Below, one piece after another: positions 8,870 through 62,832 of a stretch of DNA of 64,000 bases. The stretch covers positions 434,001 through 498,000 of the forward strand of contig NC_020191.1 in assembly GCF_000315915.1 (NCBI RefSeq), read 5' to 3'. Under the pieces are notes generated by a model. That model ran no database searches, had not been told where the DNA came from, and saw nothing but the letters and a program-made list of their open reading frames with translations. How positions within the stretch are numbered: the stretch's first letter is position 1; every line of letters begins with the position of its first letter. The translations under genes and the position numbers were made by a program. The DNA is from Henningerozyma blattae CBS 6284. Its lineage: Eukaryota > Ascomycota > Saccharomycetes > Saccharomycetales > Saccharomycetaceae.

Positions 8870-9766
8870 TTATTTTACAGAAGAAAATAAATGCAATAAT
8901 GACTTAGCTGCTTGTAAACTTATTGGTGTTTGTTGAGTAGAGGTCAATAGCATATTTTTATTTGCCTTTGCATTAGAGTTTAAACTGTTGATAGTTGCTT
9001 GAAGAGGCTTAATTGGAGTAACAACAGATGCAATAGTAGTGTTTAAAGTTACCACATTTGATAAACCATGTGAATGGGTAGAAGTATTGGAAGTTGTATT
9101 GGAGGTTGAATCGGCACGTGTAGAAGATTGGAACAGATTGGCTCTAATAGGTGTTTTATAATTCCCATGAGATACTAACAATTTTCTTCTGCGTCTACTG
9201 CGCTTATGTTTGGAGTTGATGTATGAAGAAGTTGAACGACTTATTTTGTTACTACTTGACGTGGAAGATTTAGCGATTCCATTTTTTAAAGCAGAAACAC
9301 GGGCGCTAGATGAGGCTGAAAAATTCTGAATAGTATGAACTTTCAAGATATCAGTTGCAGTTAAATGTGTTTGACCAGTTTTACACTTGTAAAGTGCCCA
9401 TTGTAATCTTACTCGTAGTTTACTGGCTACTAACTGAGCATTTGCTTGTCTGGCTTTATCACTATTTTCATTGGCATTGGAAATAGAAATAGTATTTTTT
9501 GTGTCTACACTTCGTTTAAAAGTACTTGGTAAAGTAGGTGTGCTATTACTTGAAGTAGTTAAAGTAGAATTCGTTGACATTGGTACTATGTTTGAGTTTT
9601 CTTCAGTAGGCGTTGGCAATGATAAAAGTGATGAAATAGGAGGAAGGGTATGTGTAACCAAAGGTTTTAGCGACTCATCGACAGGTGTTGGGCAATTATT
9701 TCTAGGTGGTTTATTCATAGAAGCTAAACTTAAAGGTGCTAATGGATTTCTAACCGGAATAGACAT
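8870..9766 (-). CDS. NRM1: MBF co-repressor Nrm1
   Basis: Nrm1 binds the MBF transcription factor (Mbp1-Swi6) and switches off G1/S genes on exit from G1. The diagnostic feature is the GTB motif at about residues 114-140: KLRVRLQWALYKCKTGQT followed by HLTATDILKVH, the short segment shared by Nrm1 and Whi5 that contacts the Swi4/Mbp1-Swi6 complexes. The remainder is Ser/Thr/Asn-rich and disordered, with a basic patch near 190 (SKHKRSRRRRKLL) that could serve as a nuclear signal. Length is 298 against about 249 in S. cerevisiae. Whi5 is the main alternative, but the position next to CSE2 matches NRM1. An ACGCGT element lies 108 bases upstream, consistent with NRM1 being an MBF target. Confidence 0.88.
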   Translation of the reverse strand: MSIPVRNPLAPLSLASMNKPPRNNCPTPVDESLKPLVTHTLPPISSLLSLPTPTEENSNIVPMSTNSTLTTSSNSTPTLPSTFKRSVDTKNTISISNANENSDKARQANAQLVASKLRVRLQWALYKCKTGQTHLTATDILKVHTIQNFSASSSARVSALKNGIAKSSTSSSNKISRSTSSYINSKHKRSRRRRKLLVSHGNYKTPIRANLFQSSTRADSTSNTTSNTSTHSHGLSNVVTLNTTIASVVTPIKPLQATINSLNSNAKANKNMLLTSTQQTPISLQAAKSLLHLFSSVK

Positions 9767-20538: not shown

Positions 20539-21132
20539 TTAGTTATTGGAGAAATCATTGTTGCTCACATTTCTAGTCATAGCAGGCAGAGCTACCCTTA
20601 ATCCCTCGACTTCTTTACTCATCTTCACTTGGCATCCTAGACGAGAAGTTTCAGTTAACCCGTAGGCTAAATCTAACATATCATTTTCATCATCTTCGGG
20701 TTCTGGTAAAGCATCTATATAATCTGGGTCTACAATGACATGACATGTAGAGCATGCACATGATCCACCACATGCACCTTCCATGTCTAAGTTATGTGCT
20801 TGAGCAATATCTAATAAGGAATCCCCTTCGCTAACTTCAAATGTCTTTTGTTCTCCGTCTTTTAAGACAAATGTAATATGCAATTCTTCACCTGGCTTTG
20901 GAGGATTAAGGTGGCCATGAAAAGTAGTTAGTGTTGACGAAAATGATCTTACTTGTGATTTATAAAAATTAATTGCCTTTGGATGACGTCTAAGAGATAT
21001 AGTAGGATCATTAAATGTGCTATGTCTGAGGGCGTACTTATATGAGGCTAATGACGAAAATAATCTTCCACTGGTTAATGGTTTCCAAAGAAGTGATGAT
21101 TTCTTAGAAATGCAATTTGTGAGCGATAACAT
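20539..21132 (-). CDS. YAH1: Mitochondrial ferredoxin (adrenodoxin homologue)
   Basis: Yah1 is the [2Fe-2S] ferredoxin of the mitochondrial matrix that donates electrons to iron-sulfur cluster assembly, haem A and coenzyme Q synthesis. The four cluster ligands are in place: C121-x5-C127-x2-C130-x36-C167, in the block GACGGSCACSTCHVIVDP and in SRLGCQVKM. The N-terminal 65-75 residues form a typical presequence: rich in Ser, Arg, Lys and hydrophobic residues with few acids, and containing VRSFSST, a plausible processing site. Length is 197 against 172 in S. cerevisiae, the difference being in the presequence. The C-terminal ALPAMTRNVS is typical of this family. It is divergent from VTI1 with a CACGTG between them. 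YAH1 follows VIK1 in S. cerevisiae. Confidence 0.97.
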   Translation of the reverse strand: MLSLTNCISKKSSLLWKPLTSGRLFSSLASYKYALRHSTFNDPTISLRRHPKAINFYKSQVRSFSSTLTTFHGHLNPPKPGEELHITFVLKDGEQKTFEVSEGDSLLDIAQAHNLDMEGACGGSCACSTCHVIVDPDYIDALPEPEDDENDMLDLAYGLTETSRLGCQVKMSKEVEGLRVALPAMTRNVSNNDFSNN

Positions 21133-39982: not shown

Positions 39983-42900
39983 CTAGACTAAGCTCTTTGA
40001 AAGCTTCTCCTTATCTTCAGCGCTTAACATTTTCAAAACTTCTGATAATCCGATAATTGAATTATCATGATCATTTCTAATAGATTTAGCTAATTCTTGA
40101 GCAAATTTTTCTAGTTTTAAGCCCTTCAATTTTTCTTCAACGACATGGTAGTTTTCTTCGATCCAAACGGCAACACTTTTATCATCTTCAATTGTAATAT
40201 CTTTAGAATACCAACTTCTTAATCTAGCCATCTTTTCCAGTCTACTGGAAGTCTTTAATTCCTTGTCTAGACGACGAATCAAATATTCTTCGTTTAATCT
40301 TCTTCTCAATCTCCAGAAGAAGAATCTACGAGATTCGCTCCATTCTAATTCCTTCCTAATGGTATCCTTAGCTAACATACGGCCGGTTCTGTCATGTAAA
40401 TCAGCAAATTGAACACTGATTTGACTATAGACTGGGTATAATTGTTTTTCACGTAACGATAATTTCTTGCTTAGTTCTTGGTGTTCTTCAGTGCTTAGTT
40501 TACTGTTCATTAATTGTTCTTTCAAATCACGGTATTTCTTGTCCAATCTTGCCATAGTGGATAATAATTTTTCCCTACGATACTTAATACCAACCATACC
40601 TTCTGGTTCTAAGACACCAGCTCTTGAGTCTACATCAGCATACATTTCCATCTGTTCTGGATTAATGGTTGGATCAACAACAACCCAAGAACCACCTCTT
40701 AGTTCACCAGTTGGTGGAATATAGATGAAAATTGGTTGTTTATATTCAACTAAAGCATCAACAATGAAAGAACCATATTTCAAAACTTCATTGAACATAT
40801 CACGCTGACCACCAGAGAAACCTCTCCAATTAGCTAAAATCATTAGTGGTAATTGTTCACCATGGTTAAAATCTTTAATGGCTTGAGCTGTCTTGAAAGC
40901 AGAATTTGGATACCAAACTTGGCCAGCTTCTTGAACCAAAGTTTCAGTGGAATCTGGATTGGCTGGGTCAGCTGGAATAATAGTCTCAACTGTTTGAGTA
41001 GATACAGCGATGACACCCATTGGGATACCACCTAAACGAGCTCTACCTACAACAACACCCTTAGCCCAACCAGACAAAGTTTCAAAGAATGAGCCTTTAT
41101 CGAATAACCCGTATTCAAATCCGTTTGGGCCATCGCGACCTTCAATCATCCATCTGACATCATAAGGAGCTTTATCACCTGGTGGGCAATAATCAACAGA
41201 TCTATCCCACTTATCATCCGATTCCAGAATTGGAACTGGCATATTACGTTTGGCGGGAATATAGGACAACCACTTCATAATTTGTTGAACAGCAGCTAAA
41301 TCGTCGGGAGCAGTCAAATGAGAGACACCATTATTGTACATGATTTGAGTACCACCTAATTGCAAGTTGGATGTGTAAACTTCCTTACCTAGAACCTTAT
41401 TAATGGCAGGAGCACCTGTTAAAATAATTGGTTGACCTTCAATTTGAATGGCTCTTTGACCTAACCTAACCAAATAAGCACCAATACCGACAGATCTACA
41501 TGTGACTAAAGTAATGGTGAAAATATCAGTGTATGCTCTTGAAGTTGCACCAGCGATTAAACCAGAACCTCTCAAACATTCTACACCTAACCCATCTTCT
41601 GAACCAATAATTGTTTTGATAACATGTCTTTGTTCACCATTTTCCACAATTGGCTCAGTAACAACAGATCCTTCTTTACCGTATTTCTTTAATTCTTCAA
41701 TGCCAGAATCATTTAAGTACAGATACTTGAAACCCTTGGCTTCAGAAGTTGGATCATTCCAAGCAACTTGGTACAATGGAACCAATTCATCAGCAATACC
41801 AATTCTAGCACCAGAATTTGCAGATAAGTAAATTCTTGGAATACCCAACTTTCTAGCATATTCGGTGACTTTATTAAAGAATTCATCTTCTTGTGGACCA
41901 AAAGACCCAATTTTGAAGGTGATATCATTAGCAACAATAACAAATTGACGGCCACGAGGGTATTCAGGAGTCTTGACAGTAACTTTGAAAGCAACCATAC
42001 CAATGTTGTTTGCACCAGCTTCACGTTCGACTTCAGCTAATTCACCATTTTCATCTTCGATCAATTCGTTAGCAACAAAGAAATCATCATCTAATTTAAC
42101 CTTTGGAGAATGTTTAGTCCATTCTAAAACTGCAGCTTGATGGAATAATTCAGGGAAATCGTATACATAAGTAGTACCCATTAAATGAGCCTTGTAACGT
42201 TTTGGTTGTAGCCATTCTTTGACAGGGTATGGAGTAGCAATTGGTCTTAAATGCATAGAACCTGGTTTACCCAAAGACTTGAAAACCCATTCACCTTTAG
42301 CATTCTTAATTTCAATGTACAATTCACTCTTGACAACATAACCAGAAACATTATTAATTAGAGCACGTAATGGTACTGGAGCACCTGTTTCTGGATCTTT
42401 GATGATGATACGGATTTCAGCAGAAGTAACACGTAATCTCATTAATCTCTTACCGAATCTACCCAAGAAACCACCAAAAGCGGCTTCAACATCTTCTGGA
42501 GAAACATCAAAGACTGCAGAGAAGTGAATGAAAATATGGTTCAAGTCGGAATTAGAAGTATCTAAGATTTCTAAGTTGTCTAAGATATCACTCATTAATC
42601 TATGAGCTTCAGAAGTCAAATATTCTTGAATTGATACATCTTCACGAATGCTACCTGTTCTAATTATACCTCTTGTGAAAAATCTTTTATCTAATGGAGA
42701 TGTCTTACTAACAGCTTCATAGACATGAATATTTCTATTTTCAGTAAAGATTGGTTTGATATCAAAATTGGCCATTCTACCCAATTCTAATTGGAAAGCC
42801 AAAGCAGGTTCAATATGACGAATAGTTTCATCTTCAGAATAGTTTGGACCCTTAAAGGTATAATACTTTGGATAAGAACCATCATCGAAACCAAACAAGA

Positions 42901-45900
42901 AAGTAATACGACGGATACCTGACTTTACTAGTACTTGTTTGTTTAAATTCAATATTTCACTTAATCTCTTCAAAACATCAGTCTCAGAAGAAAACCCTTC
43001 AGTAGAATGTACGTAAACATTGATAATGTTACTTAAAGATGTTGGATTGTTTGATGATCTATCTGGAGCTGGGCCAGCGGAGTTTCCGGTATTATGATGA
43101 TGTTTTGGAATAACATCAACACTTTGGGTGATAGCATCATCTACGTCATCTAAATGATCGACAGCTGATAGAATACCAGTTCTTAATGGGGCATTTTCAC
43201 TATCGACAACATAAGATAAATCAGAAACAGAAACAGCTCTATTCATACCAAATTTATTTTTAACTAATGGGATTGCAGAGAATGCGGCAGAAGGTAACTG
43301 GAATTTCCATTCACAAATTGGGTTATTGGTACCATCATGAACTTTAACATCTGCAACAGTGTAAGCTCTATACGCACGACGTACATAAACCTGAGCAGCA
43401 GCAGCACAAACTGAGTGATCAGAATGGTTTAAGAAAGGTGTTAAAACATCAAAAACAACATATTTTGAATCAATCAAATCTTTCAATACTTCCAAGTCTG
43501 GTTCAGAACGTTTAGGATGGGTATCACCATAAGCAGTTTTAACAACTGAGGATTTCAAGATGTGTTCAATCTGTTCAGTTCTTTCCTTAACAGAAGGTAG
43601 TGCACCTTGAATTAAGATTTCTCTTGCCTGTAAAGCTACTTTAGCAGTAGCTTTGGATTCTAATTCTACAATATGTTGCAAAGGATCAGCAATAATACTT
43701 GCAATATCAGAAGATAATTTACATAGAGGTTGGTAGTGTTTTAGAATGGCCAAGATTAAATTATTTTTGGCAGATATTCTTGAATGAGATAAAACTATTA
43801 ATACAACTTTATCTAAATCATCAGGGTTTTCATCACGTAATTTTAAGATAACATTTTCTTCCCTAACGTTTGGACCGTTAAATAATTTTTCAACATTGTA
43901 ATATTCTTCCAATAATTTCACAAATATGGAATGTTCATGATGTTCCAAGCCATTTTCAAATCTCTTTGTAATATCTAATAATGGTTCAATAGTTGTCTTA
44001 AAAAGTAAAATATCAGATTCCGGTATTTTTTCAGAACGTTGTTTTTCAACTTCCAAATCTAGCATTTTCTTCAATTGTCTAGCTGGGAACACGGCATTAC
44101 GCTTTAGAGATCTATCGACTAATTCATTAAGCTGTTCATCTAATTTAATTGGTAATCTAGAATGTAAAGCAGATACTTGCGATTGCCATTCTGAATAAGG
44201 TAAAGTAGGATCTCTTAATACATGGATCAATTGATTTAAAGTAGCATCCATTACAACTTGATTATCATAACCTTTTAAAATATTTTGTAGAGTTGAGATT
44301 AAGAATTTGAACTTTTGAACAGGTTTCTTACCTTGAATATTTGGAGAACCGAAGTCCGGTAGCATTCCTTCGAATGGCAAGGCATGTTTAACTTTTGATG
44401 GGTCGTCTAGTGTTAAAATGGCAATGATATCACCTGCGGATATGGTTGAACCAGGTTGTTTTAGTAGTTGAACGATACCAGATTCTTGAGCTATTAAGGG
44501 CATTTGCATTTTCATAACTTCAACTTCGGCATAAGCTTCACCTGAATTAATATGATCACCGTTTTCAACTAAATATTTAACTAATTTACCTGGAGATGGA
44601 GTACGTAATTGTGTTGGATCATTTTCTACTTCTAATAAGGTAGTCATTGAGTCTACTGATAATCTTGTTGAAGCAACTTCATCTTTCCAATAGATGGTAT
44701 GTGATTTCCCACCAATAGCGATTAGCAAACCACCATCAGATAATTTATGAACAGATACTTCACATTTGGAACCATTGATGAAAAGAGTATATAAGTCATC
44801 AGCAGATTTGGCTACGGTAAATTTGAAGCGTTTTCCTTCATGAATAAACTCTATTGGAAACATTGTTTGTAGAAGAACACTGGAAGAAACTTGACCTCTC
44901 CTCAAAGATTCTATATATTCATTACAATTGGTTTCAGAAGCGATGAAAGCTTTAGTTGCAGCACCACAGATTACAGCCAAAGTAGGATCTGGTTTTTCGG
45001 CAGTCATTTTATGTAAAATCAAATCATCTAGCCAGCCAGTTGTAATGGTATTATCTTCGAAATCTTCGGTTTCTAATAACTTAATCAAATATTCCACAGT
45101 GGTCCTAAAGTCACCCCTAATAGATAATTCTTTTAAGGCGACAACCATATGTTTTCTAGAAGCTTGTCTATTTTCACCAAAGGCAAAGATATGACCGAAT
45201 TGAGAATCAGAGAATGAATGAATGTTACCATTGTTACCCACAGAGAAATAACCCCAAACATTTGAAGATGAACGGAAATTTAATTCATGTAATGAACCAC
45301 CGGATGGTTTAAAACCTTCATTTGGATCTTCAGAAGTGATACGGCACGCAGTACAATGGCCCTTTGGAACAGGTTTTCTTTGAATCTTTTTGGATTCTTC
45401 AGTGGAGAAATCAAAGTCAATTTCTGTAGAAGTATGAGGATTCAAACCATAAAGGACTCTAATATCTTTAATTCTATGTAATGGAATACCCATAGCGATT
45501 TGTAATTGGGCAGCAGGTAAGTTTACGCCACTAACCATTTCAGTAGTTGGATGCTCCACTTGTAATCTTGGATTTAATTCTAAGAAATAGAACTTTTCAT
45601 CTTCGTGACTATACAGATATTCCACAGTACCAGCTGATACGTAACCAACCAATTTCCCCAGTCTTACAGCAGCTTTTTCCATTTCAGTAAAAGTTATAGG
45701 TTTAGCAATCGTAACTGGTGCTTCTTCAATAATCTTTTGATGTCTTCTTTGAACAGAACAATCTCTACCGAATAAAGATATATTGTTACCGTATTGATCG
45801 GCTAATAATTGGACTTCTAAATGACGAGCCCTACCTGCTAATTTCATAATAAAGATTGGAGAACCTGGAATTTCATTCATAGCTTGATTATAAAGCGATA

Positions 45901-46663
45901 TGAAATCTTCCTCACGTTCTACTTGTCTAATACCTTTACCACCACCACCTTCAGAAGCTTTGATCATTACCGGGAAACCAATCTTTTTAGCCTTCTCAAG
46001 ACCATCTTCTGGAGAAGAACAGCACCCTTGTTGATAAATATCGTCATCTACAGACACTAGACCTGTCTTTGAATCAATATGAACGGTATCCACGCCAGTC
46101 CCAGACCATGGGATACAAGGAACTTTTGCATGTTGTGCAACAATTGTAGAGGAAATTTTATCACCTAATGAACGCATGGCACTACCTGGAGGACCAATAA
46201 ATAATATTTTTCTATGAGATTGTGCCAATTTTTCAGGTAAATGAGGGTTTTCAGAAGCATGACCCCAACCAGCCCAAACGGCATCTACATCGGTTCTTTC
46301 AGCGATATCCACAATTAAATCTACATTAGCATAATTGTTGTTATTTGTTCCTCCTGGAACTTCGATGAATTGATCAGCCATTCTAATATATTCTGAATTT
46401 GCCTTTAAATCATCTGGAGTTGCCATAACTACGAATTGAATGATACGATCATTACCAAATGTTTCATAAGACCATTTTCTAATGGACCTAATTTCCTTTA
46501 CAGCAGCAATACCATTGTTAGCAATTAAGATCTTGGAAATAATCGAATGACCTTCATGAGAAGCGATGAAATCTTTCAAAGGAGATTCATCATTAGATTT
46601 GGCAATAGTATTAAACCCAATAAAATTTGAAGGTAAAGTGGAATGTTTTGCAATATAACTCAT
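39983..46663 (-). CDS. ACC1: Acetyl-CoA carboxylase
   Basis: This biotin enzyme makes malonyl-CoA from acetyl-CoA and bicarbonate, the committed step of fatty acid synthesis. The 2226 residues from the first ATG match S. cerevisiae Acc1 (2233). In order: biotin carboxylase (about 40-550, with GGGGKGIRQVEREEDF and FLELNPRLQVEHPTTE); the biotinyl site EVMKMQM (near 715); the central region; and carboxyltransferase (about 1480-2200, with SANSGARIG, ECLRGSGLIAGATSRAY, GGTQIMYNNGVSHLTA, NWRGFSGGQRDMFNE and PPTGELRGGSWVV). HFA1 is the mitochondrial WGD paralogue; overall sequence fits Acc1. The frame stays open 50 codons upstream of the ATG (to 46813), encoding a basic, acid-free stretch that may be a non-AUG-initiated mitochondrial presequence. 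An inositol-type E-box lies about 590 bases upstream. It sits between two unrelated synteny blocks. Confidence 0.97.
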   Translation of the reverse strand: MSYIAKHSTLPSNFIGFNTIAKSNDESPLKDFIASHEGHSIISKILIANNGIAAVKEIRSIRKWSYETFGNDRIIQFVVMATPDDLKANSEYIRMADQFIEVPGGTNNNNYANVDLIVDIAERTDVDAVWAGWGHASENPHLPEKLAQSHRKILFIGPPGSAMRSLGDKISSTIVAQHAKVPCIPWSGTGVDTVHIDSKTGLVSVDDDIYQQGCCSSPEDGLEKAKKIGFPVMIKASEGGGGKGIRQVEREEDFISLYNQAMNEIPGSPIFIMKLAGRARHLEVQLLADQYGNNISLFGRDCSVQRRHQKIIEEAPVTIAKPITFTEMEKAAVRLGKLVGYVSAGTVEYLYSHEDEKFYFLELNPRLQVEHPTTEMVSGVNLPAAQLQIAMGIPLHRIKDIRVLYGLNPHTSTEIDFDFSTEESKKIQRKPVPKGHCTACRITSEDPNEGFKPSGGSLHELNFRSSSNVWGYFSVGNNGNIHSFSDSQFGHIFAFGENRQASRKHMVVALKELSIRGDFRTTVEYLIKLLETEDFEDNTITTGWLDDLILHKMTAEKPDPTLAVICGAATKAFIASETNCNEYIESLRRGQVSSSVLLQTMFPIEFIHEGKRFKFTVAKSADDLYTLFINGSKCEVSVHKLSDGGLLIAIGGKSHTIYWKDEVASTRLSVDSMTTLLEVENDPTQLRTPSPGKLVKYLVENGDHINSGEAYAEVEVMKMQMPLIAQESGIVQLLKQPGSTISAGDIIAILTLDDPSKVKHALPFEGMLPDFGSPNIQGKKPVQKFKFLISTLQNILKGYDNQVVMDATLNQLIHVLRDPTLPYSEWQSQVSALHSRLPIKLDEQLNELVDRSLKRNAVFPARQLKKMLDLEVEKQRSEKIPESDILLFKTTIEPLLDITKRFENGLEHHEHSIFVKLLEEYYNVEKLFNGPNVREENVILKLRDENPDDLDKVVLIVLSHSRISAKNNLILAILKHYQPLCKLSSDIASIIADPLQHIVELESKATAKVALQAREILIQGALPSVKERTEQIEHILKSSVVKTAYGDTHPKRSEPDLEVLKDLIDSKYVVFDVLTPFLNHSDHSVCAAAAQVYVRRAYRAYTVADVKVHDGTNNPICEWKFQLPSAAFSAIPLVKNKFGMNRAVSVSDLSYVVDSENAPLRTGILSAVDHLDDVDDAITQSVDVIPKHHHNTGNSAGPAPDRSSNNPTSLSNIINVYVHSTEGFSSETDVLKRLSEILNLNKQVLVKSGIRRITFLFGFDDGSYPKYYTFKGPNYSEDETIRHIEPALAFQLELGRMANFDIKPIFTENRNIHVYEAVSKTSPLDKRFFTRGIIRTGSIREDVSIQEYLTSEAHRLMSDILDNLEILDTSNSDLNHIFIHFSAVFDVSPEDVEAAFGGFLGRFGKRLMRLRVTSAEIRIIIKDPETGAPVPLRALINNVSGYVVKSELYIEIKNAKGEWVFKSLGKPGSMHLRPIATPYPVKEWLQPKRYKAHLMGTTYVYDFPELFHQAAVLEWTKHSPKVKLDDDFFVANELIEDENGELAEVEREAGANNIGMVAFKVTVKTPEYPRGRQFVIVANDITFKIGSFGPQEDEFFNKVTEYARKLGIPRIYLSANSGARIGIADELVPLYQVAWNDPTSEAKGFKYLYLNDSGIEELKKYGKEGSVVTEPIVENGEQRHVIKTIIGSEDGLGVECLRGSGLIAGATSRAYTDIFTITLVTCRSVGIGAYLVRLGQRAIQIEGQPIILTGAPAINKVLGKEVYTSNLQLGGTQIMYNNGVSHLTAPDDLAAVQQIMKWLSYIPAKRNMPVPILESDDKWDRSVDYCPPGDKAPYDVRWMIEGRDGPNGFEYGLFDKGSFFETLSGWAKGVVVGRARLGGIPMGVIAVSTQTVETIIPADPANPDSTETLVQEAGQVWYPNSAFKTAQAIKDFNHGEQLPLMILANWRGFSGGQRDMFNEVLKYGSFIVDALVEYKQPIFIYIPPTGELRGGSWVVVDPTINPEQMEMYADVDSRAGVLEPEGMVGIKYRREKLLSTMARLDKKYRDLKEQLMNSKLSTEEHQELSKKLSLREKQLYPVYSQISVQFADLHDRTGRMLAKDTIRKELEWSESRRFFFWRLRRRLNEEYLIRRLDKELKTSSRLEKMARLRSWYSKDITIEDDKSVAVWIEENYHVVEEKLKGLKLEKFAQELAKSIRNDHDNSIIGLSEVLKMLSAEDKEKLSKSLV

Positions 46664-46813
46664 ATTTGAATAAAACCTTTTGTTGCTAATAAATACAGAT
46701 CTTTTAAAAAATAATAAAGAGGTATTATTGAAGTAGTAGTGCTTATAGGAGGAAGAAAACTTTAATACTTTTATTGAATAATTTCTAATAATCTTTAAAG
46801 TAGTTAATGGTAG
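46664..46813 (-). other. Possible non-AUG N-terminal extension of ACC1 (mitochondrial presequence-like)
   Basis: Reading upstream from the ACC1 ATG in frame, there is no stop until TAA at 46814-46816. The 50 codons contain no Asp or Glu, but six Lys, three Arg and one His, with many Ser, Phe, Tyr, Ile and Leu. The stretch ends SVFISNKRFYSN just before Met1; RFYS resembles a matrix-protease site. Two consecutive ATT codons (46787-46792), the first preceded by AAG and both with A at -3, are candidate non-AUG starts. S. cerevisiae HFA1 is known to start at a non-AUG codon and to gain its presequence that way. This is inference, and depends on the mRNA including this region. Confidence 0.45.
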
Positions 46814-47250
46814 TTAGAATAATGGAATTAATTAAACAAAGTCGAAGAATAATAACAGATGTGGGGGAGGACGAAAGGATTAATGAGTTTAAAATGGAAA
46901 AAAAAATTAAAGAAAAAAATATTGGTAATTGAAGAAGAAATAAAACAAAAGAAAAAATATTAATATGATATCAAAAAATATATTTTTATTTGTAATTTAA
47001 TAGGATTAAGGAAAAAAATAATGGAAGAAATAAAATAAAGAGTAATTAATTAAAAGTAATCGGAAGCAAAAGAGTCCAGGCAGTCGTGTGGTGGATTGTC
47101 TATCGAAACGTGTATTGAGTGTCTTAAACACAGCCAATTGCTATTTTAATTTGCTTTAGATTTGCTTTTTGAATTGCTTTGCTCTTTAGCCTTTTGATTT
47201 AATGTATTAAATAAATTTAAACGCGGTAAATCCCAAATGTATCGTGTTTC

Positions 47251-47260: not shown

Positions 47261-47384
47261 ATTTATATATAAAGAGTCCACCATTAAAATCCGCTTAAAT
47301 AATTGATATACTTGGAAAAAACGCCTGACAGTCGCGGTGTTGTTGTTGGGTTTCACAGGCACCTCGGGCATTCGATAGGGGTAG

Positions 47385-54171: not shown

Positions 54172-55110
54172 TTAACATTTTAATTGGCCAATAAACATGT
54201 CCCATACTTGATTAGTAACAGAGTTTTTTGTAGTAATGTTCTTTTCTGCATCATTTAAGATAATTGGATTTTCATGAATACTTAAGCCCTTCGTCATATC
54301 TGTATCTTCAATCAATAAAGGTTCTATACAATGGACAGAGATCCCTAATTTGTCGTTAACCTCTAAATCTAATATTTCTGAATACCTAGATAATCCTGAC
54401 TTTGTAGCAGAATAAATTGAGGTGCCACTGATATTGAAATTTTTGTCCTTATTATTGGAGTTTGATTGTGCCAAACATGACGAAACGTTTATAATAAAAG
54501 GTTTAATCATGTTTGAATTTAATCCGATCTTTCTTTTATTTTTAATAAAATATTTTAAATATGAATTAATTAAAGAAATAGGGGAGTTCAAATTAATGTT
54601 TATTAAATTTTTAATTTGTAAATTACTTGTTGAGATTGATAAAGAGGATTGGGTTATTCCTGCACAATTAATAACGCCGGCTATATAATAATGATTTTTG
54701 GTCGAACTTCCATGTATATCTGAATTAAAAGGGGGAGGAAATAATGGATAGTATGTATATATTGGTTTATTATTGTAATAGTTTGTAGTCTTACTATTCC
54801 CTAGCTCATCTTTGCTAAAAATATAAGTTGGGTATATTTTAGACTCTACCCAATTAGGCCAGTTGGAAAGATCAATGGCACATACAGCAATCTTTTGATT
54901 TAATTTACTAAACTTTATAGCGTCATATTTTAATTGATCAAAATTGTTGTTTTTTAACTTTTGAAGTTGGTCAATTAATGTTGTTGTGGAGTTAGTAGAG
55001 CTTCCAACTCCAATACACGAGATGCCGTGGCTAATAAATTTATTAAAAATAGAGTTCCCTAAACCTCTTGTTGCACCAGTAATGATAACTGTTGGAATAT
55101 ATTTTGACAT
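54172..55110 (-). CDS. OAR1: Mitochondrial 3-oxoacyl-[acyl-carrier-protein] reductase
   Basis: Oar1 is the NADPH-dependent ketoacyl reductase of mitochondrial fatty acid synthesis, the pathway that makes lipoic-acid precursors. It is a short-chain dehydrogenase. The Rossmann motif is VIITGATRGLGNSIFNK (about 8-24), VINCAGITQSSLSIST is the NAG-like block (about 146), the catalytic Ser is in FIINVSSCLAQSN, and YSATKSGLSRYSEILD provides the Tyr and Lys. Length is 312 against 278, with Asn/Tyr-rich inserts at about 30-60 and 95-140. No classic presequence is seen after the ATG, and S. cerevisiae Oar1 is similar in this. Thirteen in-frame codons precede the ATG, including KLRRSPF, without a good near-cognate start except CTG or ATT. 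It is the chromosome XI member between FBA1 and SFK1. Confidence 0.9.
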   Translation of the reverse strand: MSKYIPTVIITGATRGLGNSIFNKFISHGISCIGVGSSTNSTTTLIDQLQKLKNNNFDQLKYDAIKFSKLNQKIAVCAIDLSNWPNWVESKIYPTYIFSKDELGNSKTTNYYNNKPIYTYYPLFPPPFNSDIHGSSTKNHYYIAGVINCAGITQSSLSISTSNLQIKNLININLNSPISLINSYLKYFIKNKRKIGLNSNMIKPFIINVSSCLAQSNSNNKDKNFNISGTSIYSATKSGLSRYSEILDLEVNDKLGISVHCIEPLLIEDTDMTKGLSIHENPIILNDAEKNITTKNSVTNQVWDMFIGQLKC

Positions 55111-59325: not shown

Positions 59326-62300
59326 TTAGAAAACTTCTTTGAAATAACTATTATCTCTTCCCATTGCTTCAGCTTCAACTGTGGATGCACCAACCAAATT
59401 TGAGGCTGTCTTGGCTTGAGAAATAATATTATTAAGCGCTATTGCGTCTACATTGTCAGGATCATCCTCATCTTCAACGTTCTCATTATTAACATCAGGT
59501 AAAGTACCTTGAGAAAAGCCACTAAATTGATCCGCAGTTACATCATTATCTTTCCCCTCGCATGGTTCCTCTGTATCTGCGGGAAGTTCATCATTAGCGG
59601 TATTTGTTACACTCTTAGATTTCGTTGGAGAATTATTTTCAATGCCACCCTCATTATCACCTTCTTCGCCAGCTAAAAGATTTTTATCATCATTAGTCGT
59701 AGCTTTACTTTCACCAGATGATAATAAAAATCTAGAAGCCCAACTACGTTTTTGAGTCTCATGAGTATTAAGCTCACATTCATCAAAGTCACTAACGGGT
59801 TCATCATCATCATCATCTTGGTCGTACAAAGTTGGATGAGATGCTGTTTTCTTTCTCATACCTGATTCTTCAGCAGATGGATGATCACTATAATAAATAT
59901 TATTAGCAATATCGCTTTCATCAGTTATGGAGGGGGGAATTAAATCACTAACAATATCAAGATCATTATCGTTAGCATTCGTGGCTGGAATTGGAAGTGG
60001 TGTTTCTAATCTTGTTTTAGCATATTGAGATTTTTTCTTTTCATATACTTCACCGGCTTCCATGGCTCTAGTTCTTGTACTTGTTGCATCAAGCATGATA
60101 TCATCATCACCATCATCCTCAGTACTATAAATATCAATTTCATTTTGAATATCTCTAATAGAATGTAATTGTTCTCTTTTGAAATTTAATTCAGTATTAT
60201 TGATTTGAATATTTCTAGAATTAGCAAATGAATCAGTTTGTAATTGTTTCAATTGTGCAATCTGCAAAGCCAAAGAAGCTTTAGACTGAGCTTTCTTGGC
60301 CTTTATCATTGATAATTTATCTTCAATTATTTCTTGTTTATCTAATAATTCTTCATCAATATTTTCATTATTTGAGGTGCTAGTATTTGTTTCATTTGTA
60401 ATTTGAATCAATTCGACAGTTAAAGAATGAATTTGTTGATCAAAATCTTCGATCGATTTTTTACTTTTGTCCACAGATTCTTTAATTACATTTTGCTTTG
60501 AAATGATTTCATTTTTCTTGAGATTCAAATCTTTTTGCTTTTTCTCAGCAATTTCTAATTGAGTCTTTATATTAACAATCATTATATCTTGTTCCTTTTG
60601 TAATGAAGCCAGATTTTCTTCTTCAGTCTTTTTAACATTGGCGAATTTTTTAGCTAACCGTTTTTTATGATTATCCATTTTTAATTTACAAGCATCTTTA
60701 GTGTCTTTGAATTTTTTCTTTGTCAAATTTAAATCATTTTGTTTAGCTGATAATGCCTTTTCCTTTGTTTCAACCAATTTATTAAATTTAGAAGTTTCTT
60801 TATTTTTAGTATTGGTAAATTCTTGTTTATGTTTTAAAGTAGTTTCATCTAAAACTTTTTTATCATTTGTATCTTTTAAAATTTGTAAATTCTTAAAGTC
60901 TAAAAATCCATTTGAATTTTTTTCAGCTCTTTGATGAATATCTAAATCATTTTTACGTTGTTGTTCTGCTCTAGAGGAAACTTCATCCAAAACAGGAGAT
61001 AACATCTTGGCTGCAATATCATCGATTTCTTCTTGGGATAAAAATAAACCAGATCCCATATCGATTTTATTTCTATTTGGATCATTAATTTGTTTATTAA
61101 AAATTTCTTGAGCCTTTGTTATAGCAGCTTGATTATATTTTTCATTTCCAAATAGATTGACACCACGTTTCCCTTGACCAAAGGTATTTGATAAATTTTG
61201 ATCCAAGTTTCTTAATTTTTCATCTACATTTGATTGAGCTGCAGTAATCACACCTTTTGATGTTACATGTTTTAAATATTCATCTCTTTCTTTTTCGAAA
61301 TCAAGTTGAGTCTTTTCATAATCAGTCATAGAACTATAATTTCTAACAGCATAAGCAGCACGATGAGCATGCTTATCCTTATGATGTGGATTTTTTTCTT
61401 TAGTAGTGGTGGTAGTGGTATTTTGTTTTGTCTTTAAAGAAGAAATCATGGAATTTGATTTGGAATTTGATCTTGACATTATGATTGATGCACTTCTCGA
61501 ATTTGACCTAGAAGGTGTTCTTGAAGTTGCTCTTGGGCTTGTAACATCGTGATCCATTTTAGAGGAAGAGGCAGTGGGAGGAGGTGGAGGGGCAAGAGGA
61601 GATTGAATATTATTAAAACTACTAAAACTTTCCATTGTGGCAATGCTTTGGGATCTGGATCTTGCAATGCTTTGAGAACCTGACCTTGCAATACTTTGTG
61701 ATCTGGATTTGGCAATACTTTGTGACCTTGATCTTGACACAGGTTTTTTTTCATCGTTTGCACCTGGGTTTTCACTACCTAAAGCTGTTGGTAAATTATG
61801 ATAAAACTCATATCTAGTGGTATTTGTAAGTAACCCGTATTCGAATTCTTTCCTCTCAGGTTGAAGTCTTGAATTCAGTCTTGTTTCAGCAGATTTTTCA
61901 GCACCTTTAAATAATTTCGTCATATCAATTGGAGTTAAATTGACATTTTTCAAATCATCAGATTTTTTAAATTTCGAATTTTTTTTCTGTTTTGCCTTTG
62001 TTTTATTGTTAATTGTAGAAGCGTTACTAATTAAAGAATTGGATTGAGAGGATTCTTTATTTGAAAAAGAATTTGTCTTGGAATTGATTTTCGATTTAAG
62101 TTTCCCCTTTATAATGGTACCATTTGATTTAATTGAATAAGTTTGATCTTTTTTCGAACTTGAAGTTGAATCAGTAGTTACATCCAAATTATCAGATAAA
62201 GCTTTTAAAGTTTGTGGGTCTATAACTTTTGGTTTTGTTCTTAAAGTTGTTGGAGAAGGAGAAGTGATTGTATTGGAAGTAGAACTAGTCACACTTGTGA

Positions 62301-62832
62301 ATAGGGATCCATTGGGAGTAGATTTCAATGGGGTAGCAGTTAAAGATGGAGATCCGACAAAAGATGAATAATTATATTCCAAGTCATCTTCAATGGAGGA
62401 GGCAGAATAGGCCTTTGTAGCTGCAGCAGAAGATGAAGAGGGTCTTCTCATTCTTTTGGGGATAGAATCTACAAAGTTTGAAGAATCGGTGGCACTGCCA
62501 TTACCACTACCACCAAGTAATTTCTTGTAGGTATCTACATTTGATTGCGGTGGTGCAATATGATCTTTGTGGGCTTTTTGAGCAGCCACATCTGAAGCCA
62601 ATTTAGGGTTTGATAGACCTTTACTTAATTTTGAAGTGGGGGATTGGAAGGCACCGGTTTTCAATTTAGCTCTGTATAGGGCTTCTGCACTTAGAGGTTC
62701 GCCAGATTCTTGATATACGGATAATTTTTTTTTAGTTTTCATTGTGGGAGGTGTAATGTCTTTAGTGTTGTTATTATTATTTTTTTGTGAAACCAAAGAA
62801 TAGTTCTTTGATGTAGAGGAGGAAGAAGACAT
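59326..62832 (-). CDS. EIS1: Eisosome-type coiled-coil protein (Eis1/YKL050C family)
   Basis: Eis1 (YMR031C) and YKL050C are WGD paralogues; Eis1 is an eisosome component at plasma-membrane furrows. The N-terminal conserved block is GEPLSAEALYRAKLKTGAF with QSPTSKLSKGLSNPKLASD. AAYAVRNYSSMTDYEKTQLD (about 487-506) and GSGLFLSQEEIDDIAAKML (about 586-604) follow. A long coiled coil rich in Lys, Glu and Gln covers about 625-900. Acidic Ser/Asp/Glu/Asn-rich stretches fill the C terminus, ending EAMGRDNSYFKEVF. Ser/Asn/Thr-rich linkers make it 1168 residues against 843 (Eis1) and 922 (YKL050C). Residues 366-397 are four copies of an eight-residue SRSQSIAx unit. It is convergent with SFK1 (as YKL050C) and divergent from HOF1 (as EIS1), so it descends from the shared ancestor and the symbol is a choice. 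Confidence 0.9.
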   Translation of the reverse strand: MSSSSSTSKNYSLVSQKNNNNNTKDITPPTMKTKKKLSVYQESGEPLSAEALYRAKLKTGAFQSPTSKLSKGLSNPKLASDVAAQKAHKDHIAPPQSNVDTYKKLLGGSGNGSATDSSNFVDSIPKRMRRPSSSSAAATKAYSASSIEDDLEYNYSSFVGSPSLTATPLKSTPNGSLFTSVTSSTSNTITSPSPTTLRTKPKVIDPQTLKALSDNLDVTTDSTSSSKKDQTYSIKSNGTIIKGKLKSKINSKTNSFSNKESSQSNSLISNASTINNKTKAKQKKNSKFKKSDDLKNVNLTPIDMTKLFKGAEKSAETRLNSRLQPERKEFEYGLLTNTTRYEFYHNLPTALGSENPGANDEKKPVSRSRSQSIAKSRSQSIARSGSQSIARSRSQSIATMESFSSFNNIQSPLAPPPPPTASSSKMDHDVTSPRATSRTPSRSNSRSASIIMSRSNSKSNSMISSLKTKQNTTTTTTKEKNPHHKDKHAHRAAYAVRNYSSMTDYEKTQLDFEKERDEYLKHVTSKGVITAAQSNVDEKLRNLDQNLSNTFGQGKRGVNLFGNEKYNQAAITKAQEIFNKQINDPNRNKIDMGSGLFLSQEEIDDIAAKMLSPVLDEVSSRAEQQRKNDLDIHQRAEKNSNGFLDFKNLQILKDTNDKKVLDETTLKHKQEFTNTKNKETSKFNKLVETKEKALSAKQNDLNLTKKKFKDTKDACKLKMDNHKKRLAKKFANVKKTEEENLASLQKEQDIMIVNIKTQLEIAEKKQKDLNLKKNEIISKQNVIKESVDKSKKSIEDFDQQIHSLTVELIQITNETNTSTSNNENIDEELLDKQEIIEDKLSMIKAKKAQSKASLALQIAQLKQLQTDSFANSRNIQINNTELNFKREQLHSIRDIQNEIDIYSTEDDGDDDIMLDATSTRTRAMEAGEVYEKKKSQYAKTRLETPLPIPATNANDNDLDIVSDLIPPSITDESDIANNIYYSDHPSAEESGMRKKTASHPTLYDQDDDDDEPVSDFDECELNTHETQKRSWASRFLLSSGESKATTNDDKNLLAGEEGDNEGGIENNSPTKSKSVTNTANDELPADTEEPCEGKDNDVTADQFSGFSQGTLPDVNNENVEDEDDPDNVDAIALNNIISQAKTASNLVGASTVEAEAMGRDNSYFKEVF
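61641..61736 (-). repeat. Four 24-base repeats in EIS1 (SRSQSIA unit)
   Basis: Four contiguous 24-base units (starts 61641, 61665, 61689, 61713) encode SRSQSIA followed by Lys, Arg or Thr, with one unit reading SGSQSIA. The RSxS pattern suggests a serial kinase target; the exact period and similarity show recent duplication. Confidence 0.9.

Follow-up and report, generated by a model that had tools for sequence, protein, structure and literature searches.

In Saccharomyces cerevisiae, mitochondrial acetyl-CoA carboxylase (ACC) is made from HFA1, whose start has been mapped to an AUU codon at -372 relative to the annotated ATG (Suomi et al. 2014, PMC4263661), in line with the non-AUG start that a first-pass annotation of the locus described here had given for this gene. 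For yeasts with a single ACC gene, two starts that would give both forms of the enzyme were proposed by Turunen et al. 2008. The ACC of K. lactis (KLLA0F06072g) rescues hfa1 only when its upstream region is present (12/18 isolates versus 0/18), and upstream presequence predictions for yeast ACCs are tabulated in the same report (PMC4263661). According to the published view, dual targeting of ACC is ancestral and S. cerevisiae divided the two roles. Outside the carboxylases, translation of ALA1 and GRS1 of S. cerevisiae begins at a non-AUG codon to give the mitochondrial form and at an AUG further downstream to give the cytosolic one (PMC2909995), and redundancy of non-AUG codons has been reported for both genes (PMC4263661).

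Here we analyze the ACC gene of Henningerozyma blattae (T. blattae) CBS 6284, ACC1, which lies in a 64,000-nucleotide stretch of contig NC_020191.1 that we refer to as the window. Like the K. lactis ACC, it is a single gene with a presequence-like in-frame stretch upstream and an ordinary AUG for the cytosolic form. In K. lactis, the upstream region was shown to be needed for hfa1 rescue; the H. blattae leader is a candidate proposed from sequence, and the acidic MSEE start has been lost in H. blattae. K. lactis is a yeast without the genome duplication, whereas H. blattae, which we take to have undergone it, now has one ACC copy. A table in PMC5499181 places T. blattae among the post-duplication species. 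Candida glabrata is likewise a post-duplication yeast with an upstream frame on its ACC, for which the MitoProt II score is only 0.56 (PMC4263661). As with the mitochondrial ACC made from HFA1, AUU is the best in-frame candidate start in H. blattae, but HFA1 is a separate paralogue, whereas H. blattae has one gene, with candidates at -129 and -126 rather than -372. ALA1 and GRS1 share the order of the two starts; they differ in encoding unrelated tRNA synthetases and in using ACG and TTG, compared to ATT here.

In the CC-licensed literature, we found no paper on the T. blattae acetyl-CoA carboxylase, and Tetrapisispora is absent from the main text of PMC4263661. The principle of a dual-targeted ACC with a non-AUG start is already published; what is new here is an acidic start that was lost and likely recoded. 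H. blattae adds a probable post-duplication yeast in which one ACC gene seemingly serves both compartments, which fits the ancestral dual-targeting view. Mitochondrial forms of this kind escape annotation when genes are modeled from their first ATG.

One ACC gene with a presequence-like upstream frame

Ahead of the ATG at 46663, the ACC1 reading frame continues through exactly 50 codons that include neither a stop nor an ATG (Table 1) and translate as LPLTTLKIIRNYSIKVLKFSSSYKHYYFNNTSLLFFKRSVFISNKRFYSN; the remaining two forward frames of the same 150 nt contain 4 and 5 stops. Our recount gave 0 Asp/Glu and 9 Lys/Arg, NKRFYSN stands directly ahead of Met1, and both codons of the tandem ATT have A at -3. 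The first-pass annotation had described all four of these features, and each was recovered as described. From the first ATT, the proposed presequence would comprise 43 codons. The motif R-x-aromatic-S is a presequence-cleavage-like motif and occurs here as RFYS. Charge, absence of acids, and RFYS all fit a presequence, and amphipathicity is modest (0.33 to 0.34, compared to 0 to 0.53 for six presequences from the same genome).

Table 1. Features of the ACC1 locus and the OAR1 candidate, in window coordinates
Feature	Positions	Strand	Basis
ACC1, 2226 aa when read from the first ATG; putative cytosolic form	39983..46663	-	
ATG-free in-frame open stretch of 50 codons ahead of Met1; proposed mitochondrial presequence	46664..46813	-	
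R-F-Y-S, presequence-cleavage-like motif ending one codon ahead of Met1	46667..46678	-	sequence
Codons 35-50, probably the old cytosolic N-terminus (MSEE(S/N)LF...YEVTD in relatives), at present 5' of Met1	46664..46711	-	BLASTP alignments
Tandem ATT ATT, proposed non-AUG starts at -129 and -126; contexts TTAAAG-ATT-A and AAGATT-ATT-A	46787..46792	-	
5' flank without any ATG	46664..47250	-	
TATATAT at -608, possible promoter element; sole match of a TATA[AT]A[AT] scan	47265..47271	-	
Short-chain dehydrogenase, OAR1 candidate (mitochondrial fatty-acid synthesis)	54172..55110	-	Pfam adh_short; name from the first-pass annotation

The PF08326 profile has one match in the H. blattae genome, that is, one ACC gene. 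A whole-protein genome search, in which the best candidates were scored and which a strongly decayed relic could escape, yielded no second copy; it returned ACC1 itself and partial matches of 22 to 40% identity at other biotin-carboxylase/CPSase-type genes. The possibility of a second ACC gene, raised in the earlier annotation, therefore found no support in either search, and a separate HFA1 gene was likewise not found by the profile or the whole-protein search.

The pathway that would use mitochondrial malonyl-CoA is represented in the genome. Genes for mitochondrial fatty-acid synthesis (mtFAS) and lipoate, with names assigned by family, include an ACP1-like gene with a presequence-like start, LIP5, a LIP2/LIP3-type gene, a CEM1-like gene, an MCT1-like gene found below the curated cut-off, and the OAR1 candidate of the window (Table 1). 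An mtFAS pathway without a mitochondrial ACC would be odd, and ACC1 is the only candidate found.

We conclude that the sole ACC gene found probably carries a functional non-AUG mitochondrial presequence, so that one gene would give two enzymes. Under this reading, a single message would be read in two ways. Most scanning ribosomes would start at the AUG and make the cytosolic carboxylase, while a minority would start at the tandem AUU, 129 and 126 nt upstream, so that the product gains about 43 residues of basic presequence lacking acids. The long form would then be imported into the matrix and cut near RFY/SN, just ahead of Met1, and the matrix enzyme would supply malonyl-CoA to the retained fatty-acid and lipoate pathway.

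Chance and the untranslated-leader alternative

The most serious alternative is a purely cytosolic ACC1 preceded by an AT-rich leader that is not translated and whose frame is open partly through chance and partly through descent of its last 16 or so codons from an old N-terminal coding segment. We regard this as unlikely. Under it, no ACC found here would serve the mitochondrial pathway, and it must explain both the length and the charge of the frame.

Length was compared with 83 called ORFs, each of at least 150 codons and some of them possibly not real genes, in 264 kb made up of the window and 20 further stretches from contig C1. Only 2/83, ACC1 being one, have 50 or more open codons upstream, and the count rises to 5/83 for at least 46 codons and 9/83 for at least 34, the last being a point in favor of the untranslated leader. 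Dinucleotide shuffles (20,000 trials each) kept the ACC1 frame open in 0.8% of cases when drawn from the 150-nt source and in 3.8% when drawn from the 300-nt source. Among the shuffles that stayed open, 31 to 44% had no acidic residue, 0.4 to 5.7% had at least nine Lys/Arg, and 0.1 to 2.5% had both. The caution in the first-pass annotation that AT-rich leaders can lack acids by chance was therefore well placed, and the acid-free character is to be expected of an untranslated leader too.

Among 3208 intergenic blocks of 43 codons, 163 have an open frame, as an untranslated leader could; only three of the 163 are acid-free with a net charge at least that of the ACC1 leader, and a combination found in 3/3208 blocks speaks against that explanation. 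Two of these three look-alikes exceed the ACC1 leader in amphipathicity, and R.[FYIL][STA] occurs in 14/163 open blocks.

Codon usage as proof of translation was inconclusive to negative across the 25 upstream frames compared. The raw codon score of the leader is -0.207 per codon (rank 15/25), which is UTR-like and is what an untranslated leader predicts; gene starts average +0.19. Two presequences from the same genome are likewise negative in raw score, at -0.137 and -0.152, and the synonymous part of the ACC1 leader score is slightly coding-like (+0.077, rank 5/25). Taken by themselves, the sequence statistics back an ACC1 presequence only moderately. Chance alone as the source of the frame is not excluded by length (2/83), and charge and genome context lower its likelihood.

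Homologues provide a further point against the untranslated leader, namely presequence-like extensions. We examined the best 120 of 7120 homologues found and counted as an extension at least 17 residues ahead of the script-chosen start, where a leading M may stand for another start codon. Such an extension is present in 41 of the best 120, and 31/41 have zero or one acidic residue; among the other ten, the acid counts of P0006, P0026, P0090, and P0092 are inflated because the cut fell at a later Met. R-x-[FYIL]-[STA] occurs anywhere in 20/41 extensions, which vary in length, and in P0092 it falls within the wrongly cut part. The presequence-like extensions of P0002, P0005, and P0006 resemble one another and have M as their first residue, and MFLNKxYxLSSRVxLTS is common to those of P0002 and P0006. 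Some lineages may start the mitochondrial ACC form at AUG. Neither residues 1-100 of the long form nor residues 1-60 of P0001, used as queries, returned a homologue of the first 34 leader codons or a sister with an upstream frame, and no stray yeast contig that encodes a relative turned up among the prokaryote genome contigs.

Loss of the acidic N-terminus and a possible shift of the start

The earlier annotation overlooked that the acidic N-terminus of close relatives is missing here and that the codons preceding Met1 align with that segment. In 35/36 best-scoring homologues, Met-Ser-[Glu/Asp/Gln] lies 57 to 64 residues ahead of an ILIANNGIAA-type core, the remaining one (P0036) having it at 49. 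ACC1 of H. blattae begins 44 residues ahead of the core, with MSYIAKHSTLPSNF, and the conserved acidic start of relatives, MSEE(S/N)LF...YEVTDY, is gone. A short start is not rare beyond the nearest set, since the core is at residue 40 to 49 in 26 of the best 120 homologues.

Using residues 1 to 100 of the long form, in which Met1 is residue 51, as a BLASTP query, we obtained alignments that extend past Met1 into the leader in all five relatives chosen. The alignments start at residue 35 in T. phaffii P0020, 37 in P0001, 44 in P0015, and 48 in V. polyspora P0009 and P0026, so that only three residues past Met1 align for the last two. In 4/5 relatives, YE(V/I)TDY lies opposite this stretch, its Tyr pairing with that of RFYS and its Thr with Met1. 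For P0001, which is 85% identical, the alignment is gapless and pairs MSEESLFFENSPSPTSTSYTSRH with FFKRSVFISNKRFYSNMSYIAKH. The 16 pre-Met1 positions score 11 against P0001, compared to an average of -11 for shuffles (P 0.007), although one other offset scores 12, and over 35 relatives the mean score of the pre-Met1 positions has a shuffle P of 0.015 to 0.02. Relative to the old N-terminus, every acid was lost and basic residues were gained, which counts against an untranslated leader.

Read most simply, these alignments point to loss of the ancestral AUG, an inward shift of the ACC1 start by about 16 codons, and a change of the acidic segment to a basic one. The alignment supports, short of proof, the view that the old N-terminus survives as the codons just ahead of Met1, which would now be translated as presequence alone. 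The alternative of an internal deletion following Met-Ser is disfavored, not disproven, by the gapless P0001 alignment and by the BLASTP extension past Met1 in 5/5 relatives. The full scenario, in which the boundary between the two ACC1 products moved and the old acidic N-terminus was recoded into the basic, cleavable end of a non-AUG presequence, with loss of the ancestral AUG, we consider evenly balanced between true and false. If it is true, overlapping ACC1 isoforms traded sequence through start-codon migration, and ACC1 would be a small, testable case of such migration. ACC1 also shows that the acidic start, although conserved among close relatives, can disappear.

This alignment also changes the weight of the frame's length. 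Because the last 16 or so codons align with the old N-terminus, they have a second reason for being open, and the 50-codon length weighs less; because they look ex-coding, their openness is no evidence for present translation. The alignment of these codons with the N-terminus of relatives also speaks for the untranslated leader. Of the unusual length claimed in the first-pass annotation, the part that stands is that such frames are uncommon, whereas about 16 of the codons look ex-coding and the other 34 are matched by nine of the 83 ORFs. Its proposal that this one gene supplies both compartments fared similarly: dual supply is still the best explanation, with no second ACC found, and its length argument is weakened.

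Where translation of the long form may begin

The tandem ATT provides a near-cognate start codon in good context upstream of ACC1. In an ALA1 reporter in S. cerevisiae, ATT gave about 50% of ATG activity, and AAG and AGG were the two triplets without initiation in that screen (PMC2909995). Further near-cognates are present in frame, namely ATA at -111 and ATT at -27, the latter very near the ATG.

No ATG begins in any frame within 589 nt 5' of ACC1; the next, at -590, opens just 35 codons. This ATG-free flank is the longest (rank 1/80) among ORFs with enough flank, for which the median is 149 nt. About 1% of shuffles of the 590 nt that include that ATG were ATG-free, with a mean of 3.6 ATG, compared to 34% when the nearest 300 nt were shuffled and 73% for the nearest 150 nt. 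Absence of ATG close to the gene is therefore ordinary, and only the long ATG-free run is notable. Together with the TATA-like site at -608, the flank is compatible with an mRNA 5' end upstream of the ATT pair, and only that. A scan of the 1.1 kb up to the neighboring ORF for yeast-type 5' splice sites (GTATGT, GTAAGT, GTATGA, GTACGT, or GTATGC, and also GTATG and GTAAG) returned none, which makes a spliced upstream AUG exon unlikely.

These data bear on a second alternative, in which the presequence is real and translation starts elsewhere, at ATA -111, at another codon, or at an upstream AUG joined by splicing. We consider this improbable. The ATA and the proximal ATT are both in frame, but ATA -111 has T at -3 and ATT -27 would leave only nine residues, and the route through an upstream AUG meets a 1.1-kb flank without a donor and an ATG at -590 with a 35-codon frame. 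The last alternative, that a sequencing or assembly error masks a normal MSEE start and that the missing N-terminus and the open frame are both artefacts, would account for the short distance to the core relative to 35/36 homologues but can be dismissed almost entirely, since a single frameshift cannot restore a start in a 589-nt flank devoid of ATG in any frame and the alignable pre-Met1 stretch is in frame.

Other genes with open upstream frames

Besides the tandem-ATT model for ACC1, which we continue to favor, several other genes have open frames upstream. A BPL1-like gene (L010, G000:C6, - strand) has a 46-codon ATG-free in-frame upstream stretch with 9 K/R and 4 Glu. A matrix ACC would need attached biotin, and Suomi et al. 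2014 (PMC4263661) predicted upstream presequences for the BPL1 genes of other yeasts. The upstream frame of a 185-codon ORF at L024:4790-5347 (+) has 49 codons, including 9 K/R and one acid, and could either resemble a presequence by chance or be another hidden one. Within the window, the 197-codon ORF at 20539-21132 (-) has a 46-codon upstream open frame with 12 K/R and three acids, and the 298-codon ORF at 8870-9766 (-) has a very hydrophobic 43-codon one with 1 K/R and no acids. Just upstream of the ORF at 59326-62832 (-), an apparent undetermined base (N) places an X in the upstream frame.
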